Source: an uncultured Opitutia bacterium (GTDB lineage: Bacteria > Verrucomicrobiota > Verrucomicrobiia > Opitutales > UBA953). Taken from it: DNA of 42,257 nt. The stretch lies in assembly GCA_903850885.1 (NCBI GenBank), contig CAINMU010000113.1, positions 1-42,257 on the forward strand, written 5' to 3'. Each line of letters opens with the position of its first letter. Position 1 is the stretch's first letter. Positions 2,737 through 4,566 of the stretch are shown piece by piece. The notes under the pieces were generated by a model. That model saw only the letters and a program-made list of their open reading frames with translations, searched no databases and was not told the origin of the DNA. Made by a program: the position numbers and the translations under genes.

Positions 2737-4566
2737 TTAAGCCTTGATACCGCGGTTGATGAACAGGCGGACGAGGGCGTCATTGTAGATAATGTGAGCG
2801 CCTTCGCGGGTCCCCGCATCGCGCACCTCGATATCATCGGTGACGACGAACCAGGGAGATTCGACGGTCTTGTCTTTAGCCACGAGATCCATGATGTCGT
2901 GGTCGGCCTTAGCTCCGGCGCGGCTGAAGGTCACTTTCATGCGTGGGTTGGTGAATTTCAGCGTGCTGGCTTGGCCGTCAAAGCACACCCAAAGATGAAG
3001 GCCGGTGGCATCGTTCGCCAGTTTCTCAAGGACTTGCACGACTTTTTGGCGGGCGGCGGGGTCGAGTAAAAGACGGGTATCTCCCTGGCTGTTCTTCTTC
3101 GTCGCCAAACGTAGGCCGAGGAATTCTTGGCGCAAGCAGGCGAAATTATTCCCATCGACGGCCAGCCGGGCTGGTTCGCCGATCGCGACCGCCCGTTCAA
3201 GCAGTGCGAGGGGGCCGGAGGTCTTGTGTTCGTGGAAGGCTTGGTCGGCCAGCTTCGAGCGACGTTTGTGGATGTCGCGGCGATAAAGGTCAGCATGGCG
3301 CGAGTCTACGAGCCCAGACTCTTCGGAGAGGCGCAAGGCGGCCTCGATTGATTTCAAGGCGGCCGCTTCGGCTTCGTTGATTTTGGCGGCAATACGTTCC
3401 AGGAAAGGGTCGGTGGGGTGGTCGCGCCGTTCTAATTCATAACGTACTTTTTCCACGTGTTCGGTGATGCGTTGCTCGAGAGCGGACATTTCCGGAAGCA
3501 CTTGACCGGCGGTGCGTTGATAGCGTCGAAGTAATTTGAGCATTTCTTCCATCTGAGGAATCGCCTGGCGAAGCTCGTGCTCTTTGGCGAGGAAGGGATC
3601 AGCGTCGCGTTGGGCCTTACGAATCTTGTCCACGTTTTCAGTCGTCAGCTGGCGAAGTTTGGCGACCTCTTCCGAGGCGGCTTTTAGCATGCGGGCATCC
3701 GCGAGCCATGGGCGAATCTCTTCGGAGAGAAGTGCTTCCGCTATTTCGCGGGCTTTTTTGGCAACCTGTTCGCGGGCCCCATCAAGCTCACCCCGGAGTC
3801 TGATGGCTTCGTCTTCGGCCTTGGCCAGTTTAGCGGCTAATGATGCGAGATTCGCCTCGTCCGCGGATTTTTTCTGGTCGAGGTTAACCTTCAGCGCGGC
3901 AATCTCGGCCTGATTTTTCTCCAGCACTAAATCAAGAGCCTTTAATTCATTGGCTTGATGGCGTTTGAGCGCGGTAATCTCTTTTTCTCGAGCCGCTTTC
4001 CCTTTATCGAGGTCTTGCTGCAGGCGTCGCAGCGTCCGGTCCGCCGGGTCGAGCGGTTCGCCGATCGCGGGTTCTTTATTGCTGGTGATCTCGCCCATCA
4101 GTTTCTGGCGAAGTGCCTGTAGCGCTTTGGCTTCAGGCTTGTTGGCCTGGGGTTTGCCAGCGGCGGCAAAGCGAGTAAGGACGTCGGCACCTAGGGCTTC
4201 CTCTTTGCTTTCCACCTTCAGGTTCCACAGCACACATAAAAGCATTGCGCGCGGTCCGCCGAGGGTTTCGTTGATAGCGTCAGCGTGTTCGAGGAAGAGG
4301 GATTTCTTCGTCGAGAGGAGGGCGGAGAACCAGGGTAAGTGATCGGCGATCGATTCCAGATCTTTGGTCAGAAAGTTTTGGCGATTTTTAAATATCCGGG
4401 AGGCGTTTTTTAAGAAGGGCACGCGGTGACTCCATCCTCCGGGGGTTTGTTTGGCCAGAGACAGCAATGGGCCGTTCGGAAGGTGGGCCAGTTCGAAGAC
4501 GAATTGTTCGGTGAGTGACTTTCGTAACGGAGCGAGGAGCTCGTTTTTAAAGGAAAATTGTCCCAT
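2737..4566 (-). CDS. Coiled-coil protein with C-terminal YacP-like NYN (PIN-fold) domain
   Basis: 609 residues, no signal peptide, so cytoplasmic. Residues 1-135 are a helical N-terminal region I do not recognise. Residues about 176-280 are a long Ala/Lys/Glu-rich coiled coil, and 300-440 are further helices. From about residue 468 the sequence fits the YacP/NYN branch of PIN-like ribonucleases: AVDGNNF (Asp471), LWVCFDG, then KVTFSRAGAKADHDI (Asp555, Asp557) and FVVTDDIEVRD (Asp577, Asp578), ending GAHIIYNDALVRLF. These acidic residues match where NYN nucleases bind metal. YacP (Rae1) in Bacillus is a ribosome-associated mRNase; the same job here is only an inference. The fusion of a long coiled coil to a YacP-like domain is unusual. 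It is transcribed divergently from the EamA gene at 4704. Confidence 0.65.
   Translation of the reverse strand: MGQFSFKNELLAPLRKSLTEQFVFELAHLPNGPLLSLAKQTPGGWSHRVPFLKNASRIFKNRQNFLTKDLESIADHLPWFSALLSTKKSLFLEHADAINETLGGPRAMLLCVLWNLKVESKEEALGADVLTRFAAAGKPQANKPEAKALQALRQKLMGEITSNKEPAIGEPLDPADRTLRRLQQDLDKGKAAREKEITALKRHQANELKALDLVLEKNQAEIAALKVNLDQKKSADEANLASLAAKLAKAEDEAIRLRGELDGAREQVAKKAREIAEALLSEEIRPWLADARMLKAASEEVAKLRQLTTENVDKIRKAQRDADPFLAKEHELRQAIPQMEEMLKLLRRYQRTAGQVLPEMSALEQRITEHVEKVRYELERRDHPTDPFLERIAAKINEAEAAALKSIEAALRLSEESGLVDSRHADLYRRDIHKRRSKLADQAFHEHKTSGPLALLERAVAIGEPARLAVDGNNFACLRQEFLGLRLATKKNSQGDTRLLLDPAARQKVVQVLEKLANDATGLHLWVCFDGQASTLKFTNPRMKVTFSRAGAKADHDIMDLVAKDKTVESPWFVVTDDIEVRDAGTREGAHIIYNDALVRLFINRGIKA

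Follow-up and report, generated by a model that had tools for sequence, protein, structure and literature searches.

A long helical protein with a C-terminal YacP-like NYN nuclease domain in a freshwater Opitutales genus, and its relatives in Verrucomicrobiota

The window considered here is a stretch of 42,257 nucleotides from an uncultured Opitutia bacterium (contig CAINMU010000113.1, assembly GCA_903850885.1), and the gene under study lies on its minus strand. An EamA transporter gene diverges from it in 40 of 42 loci, and a gene without a Pfam match, which from its sequence we take to be ThuA-like, converges on it in 39 of the 42. The gene and the parts of its product are as follows.

2737..4566, minus strand: whole open reading frame, 609 residues, ATG start, stop included (orthologues; dN/dS 0.05–0.07)
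4099..4545, minus strand: N-terminal all-helical domain, residues 8–156, with invariant GG at 43–44 and 103–104 (models, fold searches)
4039..4098, minus strand: flexible linker, residues 157–176 (pLDDT below 50 at 159–177)
3781..4038, minus strand: variable part of a long amphipathic helix, residues 177–262, a probable coiled coil (model helix 177–322; 47% mean identity)
3172..3780, minus strand: conserved helical middle domain, residues 263–465 (81% mean identity, 56% invariant columns; pLDDT only 51–87)
2740..3171, minus strand: YacP-like NYN (PIN-fold) nuclease domain, residues 466–609 (PF05991; Rae1 fold match)

The reading frame is not a chance one, since 33 of the 57 related genomes have an orthologue (these 33 all belong to the window's genus, which has 37 genomes in the set), and dN/dS is 0.05–0.07 over the whole length against three close orthologues, which indicates purifying selection. 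NYN_YacP (PF05991) is the single Pfam match over its cut-off in the 609-residue protein, and the same scan recognised no RNA-binding domain outside the NYN part; an NCBIfam scan gave no match near cut-off. A full-length AlphaFold2 model (alignment of 30 rows, mean pLDDT 78) runs from a helical N-domain (8–156) through a disordered linker, a helix (177–322), a hairpin (324–382) and further helices (387–446) to a strand-helix core (466–604). Its pTM is 0.32, and the relative arrangement of the domains therefore cannot be read from it.

The assignment of the C-terminal domain to the PIN/NYN fold and to NYN_YacP appears secure from both profile and model. PF05991 matches residues 504–599 with 28.3 bits against a cut-off of 24.6, over profile positions 26–124 of 166 and not the full length (in other long members the match ends at 106–130), and a sister sequence in genome G019 falls just below the cut-off at 24.0 bits. 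The Rossmann-like core is modelled at residues 466–604 with pLDDT 63–91 in ten-residue blocks, and in a Foldseek search of the PDB its sole match at E ≤ 0.001 is Rae1 (YacP) of Bacillus subtilis (5mq8, E 5.8e-4). VIA-align superposes model residues 466–607 on Rae1 2–133 with Z 14.2 (rmsd 2.6, 127 aligned, 21% identity). The next PIN/NYN nuclease, the protein-only RNase P HARP of Halorhodospira (7og5), shares the PIN-like core with 113 aligned residues but reaches only Z 8.2, far below Rae1. An earlier sequence-only reading, which had proposed a YacP/NYN nuclease on a long coiled-coil protein, is thus borne out, and the predicted structure contains the PIN-like Rossmann core that it had expected. 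Searching solved structures by sequence found no relative with the protein, its NYN profile or one canonical YacP, whereas a profile of canonical YacP did find Rae1.

Four aspartates of the domain correspond to those of Rae1 (residue numbers of Rae1 counted from the alignment line, whose first listed residue is L4), each being invariant and placed by alignment to Rae1.

3154..3156, minus strand: codon of D471 (Rae1 D7), motif D-G/A-N-N
2977..2979, minus strand: codon of D530 (Rae1 D53), FDG motif
2902..2904, minus strand: codon of D555 (Rae1 D81), KAD motif
2833..2835, minus strand: codon of D578 (Rae1 D104)

Rae1 D7 and D81 are demonstrated catalytic residues. All four positions are invariant in 30 of 30 genus alignment rows and in 7 of 7 rows of a divergent set, and they agree in alignments to Rae1, to canonical YacP and to three divergent long members, as well as among 16 long members from other classes; all four are kept in relatives with 18–22% identity. 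The acidic residues originally named were D471, D555, D557 and D577, of which the first two hold. D557 aligns with Rae1 R83 and shows no conservation beyond the genus. D577, aligned with Rae1 S103, is replaced by N or A in the three divergent members; the conserved set is completed by D530 and D578. Superposition on Rae1 suggests that the four cluster in the fold.

Rae1 and the window protein share the NYN fold (5mq8, 5mq9; PF05991) and these aspartates, but differ in much else. Rae1 is short and stands alone, whereas the window protein has ~460 residues of helical domains ahead of the nuclease and ends at the equivalent of Rae1 residue 133, so that the segment of Rae1 from residue 134 on is missing. 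In B. subtilis rae1 sits with the rlmB homologue yacO, described as a yacO-rae1 operon (PMC6613710), whereas the window gene adjoins the EamA and ThuA-like genes. The protein fails as a Rae1 orthologue on length, missing tail and gene order.

Upstream of the nuclease, the N-terminal domain folds with confidence when modelled alone (22 rows; pLDDT 92, pTM 0.87). The earlier reading could not place it, and even with this model no PDB match was found: the best Foldseek hit has E 1.9 (0 of 65 at E ≤ 0.001) and the best VIA-align Z is 2.8, with two FliG chains at Z 2.5 and 2.4 over residues 78–159. The result falls short of proving a new fold, because VIA-align only re-aligned Foldseek candidates. 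The long helix that follows is amphipathic over residues 177–322 with a period of 3.58, a value reached by none of 500 shuffles; it is a probable coiled coil and is put no more firmly because a plain heptad coil would have a period of 3.5. Of the 100-residue coiled coil first proposed ahead of the nuclease, the long helix stands, but residues 263–465 form a separate, very conserved helical region made up in the model of the end of the long helix, the hairpin (324–382) and the helices (387–446).

This middle domain is the most conserved part of the protein. Across 15 rows (the window protein and 14 orthologues with 56–92% identity to it), mean pairwise identity is 55% for residues 1–120, 47% for 176–262, 81% for 263–465 and 74% for 466–609, reaching 98% at residues 321–340, and dN/dS of the middle domain is 0.013 (against L075). 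A domain more constrained than the nuclease itself points to a fixed binding partner. The same fact could be read as a sign that the whole is a structural or adaptor protein whose NYN part is a non-catalytic RNA-binding fold, as could the NYN profile match, which begins no earlier than position 26 of 166. Of the readings weighed here we consider this one the most improbable, since one would expect an inactive domain to have lost some of its metal-site aspartates, and all four are kept at 18–22% identity. An oligomeric or scaffolded RNase, as was first suggested, would be plausible.

Within the window's class, the gene was found only in one freshwater Opitutales genus. A search across the order (223 genomes) recovered it in 9 of 12 genomes of the genus, in 0 of 11 from other genera of the family and in none elsewhere, and a contig scan for close relatives of the genus form returned 41 loci from freshwater and other Opitutae MAGs and a few bins labelled otherwise. 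Two of the latter (L076 and L094) are labelled Akkermansia muciniphila and Polynucleobacter meluiroseus, and the labels look wrong because the bins carry an Opitutales gene. In the genus the gene is present as one copy in nearly all genomes. It is dispensable, since it is absent from some near-complete genomes such as G057 (99% complete); no clean empty site was seen, the EamA gene of G057 having other neighbours. Genome G029 of the same genus encodes another long NYN protein, 606 residues in length and very divergent (L114:1788–3605, minus strand; also in L167). It has the motif DGYN, and RPWL in the middle domain, and occurs in 1 of the 57 genomes; the gene after it, on the same strand, encodes an AAA_17 kinase-HAD fusion.

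Short, canonical YacP is lacking in the window's genus, and in the window's genome (2.34 Mb, 152 contigs, 96% complete) PF05991 is matched once only, by the protein described here. Over the order, 132 of 223 genomes have a PF05991 match; 8 of these are the long form, and the other 124 as a rule score much better and are nearly all short frames. The 11 genomes from sister genera of the family yielded no canonical YacP in a PF05991 search. One candidate exception in the order, a YacP frame of 802 codons, was rejected: it is a short YacP at the end of an open frame that is too long and lies antisense across the neighbouring gene. Canonical YacP of other Opitutales has the same nuclease domain by profile comparison (92%, P 6.1e-7, 95 columns), and in a tree of NYN domains it forms one clade of 28 rows (99/99), separate from the window's genus. 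The genus likewise forms one clade (100/100), on a long branch beside L070 (95/88). The tree cannot decide between origins, as a grouping of the genus with canonical YacP is not rejected by the AU test (p 0.216). It holds 68 of 69 rows, L175 having been dropped because its motif pick lay 3.2 kb from the locus centre, and L138, L173, L040 and L053 gave no row by motif search.

Beyond the class the long form recurs. Among 337 genomes of the phylum, profile A4 (seven rows, including the three divergent members L070, L072 and L114, the first two of which come from searched genomes) matches 53, and by hand count 26 of them have long proteins matched beyond the NYN domain. These belong to families f1, f41, f42, f48, f58, f60, f61 and f91, and all except the window's genus lie outside its class. 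Canonical YacP (PF05991 at ≥ 50 bits in a short frame) occurs in 1 of the 26 against 104 of the other 311 (hand counts; Fisher p 7e-4), twelve genomes with NYN in long frames not clearly matched outside NYN (f57 and others) being counted among the 311. The pattern lends weak support to a replacement of canonical YacP by the long form, weak because 11 of the 26 genomes come from one genus (f48). The PF05991 cut-off itself is passed by only 4 of 12 divergent members scanned (L070, L122, L136 and L171), and in L072 Pfam matches nothing; a large share of the family may therefore escape standard annotation.

Long NYN proteins of the other classes (f48, f58, f60, f61, f91, f41 and f42) appear to share the full-length layout of the window protein. 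Their nuclease motifs differ, reading DGHN ... YSGG-GEHRAD ... NDN where the window's genus has DGNN/DANN ... SRAG-KAD ... DD, and their gene neighbours vary. Profile against profile, the genus (A3, 30 rows) matches 16 members of other classes (A7, no genus row) at 99.6% (P 1.3e-24) over 527 colinear columns, a comparison that measures alignment strength and not an unbiased sample, since the A7 members were found through A4; the reversed control over the full length gives 11.1% (P 0.0027). Separate regions were compared with one reversed and four shuffled controls each, leaving out rows with ≤ 40% of the region filled. The middle domain alone, without NYN, gives 97.1% (P 6.5e-11; reversed 0.6%, shuffled 0.1–0.3%), NYN alone 96.5% (reversed 1.2%), and the two together 99.2% (reversed 0.5%). 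The N-domain alone aligns colinearly at 30% (P 5.5e-4, against 0.4 for the reversed control), a possible homology, and the coiled coil, at 24.6% against 22.0% reversed, is uninformative. From these sequence comparisons, the order of N-domain, coiled coil, middle domain and nuclease appears to be old and to recur in other classes of the phylum; a fusion in the sense of a local novelty is not supported. A recent fusion of a resident YacP within the genus was rejected as the simplest story, the middle domain without NYN being homologous to those of other classes. The long NYN proteins are apparently an undescribed family, patchy across Verrucomicrobiota: a literature search of titles and abstract starts found neither the architecture nor a link between an NYN nuclease and EpmB.

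In the window itself no translation gene stands beside the gene, and its own neighbours give no functional link. The window's genome has no EpmA over cut-off, and its sole EF-P-family match (L203, G000:C99:1010–1561) lies below the EF-P cut-off. That EF-P-family protein has an odd tip, RTPPNNASY, where the lysine loop is expected.

The neighbourhoods of relatives across the phylum (29 loci) offer more. In all 11 f48 loci (L151–L160 and L162), a VWA gene, the long NYN gene and a KamA-family gene follow one another on the same strand, with little variation in stop-to-stop distance (1712–1748 and 937–976 in 10 of the 11). The locus left out, L156, has two long NYN genes in a row, the second standing in between. 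Two of the KamA-family proteins were tested; they pass TIGR00238 (206 and 231 bits against 199.2) and fall below the cut-offs for EpmB (199.5 and 202.9 against 369.3) and lysine 2,3-aminomutase. By elimination the gene probably encodes EpmB, an EF-P enzyme, because none of the 11 genomes has another KamA-family match, while EpmA and EF-P are encoded elsewhere in this set: EpmA (TIGR00462, cut-off 286.9) is over cut-off in all 11, in some as joined pieces, and EF-P with the tip KPGKGQ is found in 10 of 11, the exception being G290. Elsewhere, an MTS methyltransferase gene follows the long NYN gene on the same strand in three f58 loci (best NCBIfam match RsmC, 66–73 bits against 295, in the two tested), and in one f61 locus ObgE lies ~14 bases before it.

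What the nuclease might cut can be read in more than one way from this evidence. A coiled-coil-scaffolded NYN endoribonuclease could act on free RNA, in decay or maturation, like RNase Y and other NYN enzymes, and have nothing to do with the ribosome. The nuclease domain seen by profile and fold speaks for such a role, and the genus of the window has neither a translation neighbour nor the Rae1 tail; on the other hand, translation genes do adjoin the gene in f48, f58 and f61 relatives, and outside the NYN part there is no recognised RNA-binding domain. We regard this as possible, though on balance unlikely. A conflict, defence or stress-response nuclease, switched on by the N-terminal or the middle domain, seems to us improbable. 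NYN domains do serve as effectors in conflict and defence systems, and two f57 loci (L171:5225–9811 and L174:2384–7471) have a Ser/Thr kinase gene directly after the long NYN gene, the one scanned carrying a C-terminal FGE-sulfatase domain; a CRISPR-associated NYN ribonuclease has also been reported (PMC11346440). Yet a fixed chromosomal place in the genus, a single copy in nearly all genomes and a very low dN/dS look like those of a housekeeping gene, not of a fast-changing defence gene.

The explanation that we prefer, and hold with about even confidence, sees in the protein a helical stalk tipped by a metal-dependent NYN endoribonuclease; it would self-associate, be guided by a partner and cleave mRNA in a translation-coupled manner. 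The fold, the conserved aspartates, the pattern of conservation, the old layout across the phylum and the gene order in relatives are observed, whereas catalysis, RNA as the substrate, self-association and the tie to the ribosome are inferred. The long helix would hold two or more C-terminal nuclease domains together, while the N-terminal globular domain and the conserved middle domain would recognise a fixed partner, and the nuclease would cut the RNA which that partner brings. The partner would most likely be the ribosome, either translating or stalled, as with Rae1, or else a complex linked to translation; lineages mostly without short YacP would in this way have translation-coupled mRNA cleavage. 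In B. subtilis, loss of rae1 suppresses the swarming defect of efp, and the A site of the ribosome is where Rae1 acts (PMC6613710). Given these reports and the probable EpmB gene order, a role linked to translation is our best single guess, although the clues come from relatives and not from the window's own genus. Any binding to the ribosome could not quite match that of Rae1, because the R166P substitution, a loss of function in B. subtilis (PMC6613710), lies in the segment absent here.

A narrower form of the preferred reading, which we put forward only tentatively and think doubtful as it stands, would place the protein in translation quality control: a scaffolded NYN RNase with a new N-terminal fold and a highly conserved middle domain that binds a partner, replacing Rae1, would cut mRNA on ribosomes that stall when EF-P action is lacking, and in one branch share an operon with EpmB. 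Few nucleases of bacteria are known to cleave mRNA at stalled ribosomes, and most knowledge of Rae1 comes from Bacillus. A phylum-wide family with a Rae1-type catalytic domain on a large conserved scaffold, near EF-P genes in one branch, is thus a testable candidate for EF-P-linked mRNA surveillance.

Shorter NYN proteins were also encountered among the relatives. At L164 (6194–11157, minus strand), FtsA, FtsZ, a shorter NYN protein (430 residues, without most of the middle domain) and a methyltransferase are encoded in that order on one strand. In f58, the short NYN proteins of L143–L146 have a brief coiled coil ahead of the NYN domain, carry the motif YTGG/YSGG-G-HRAD and form one clade (100/99).
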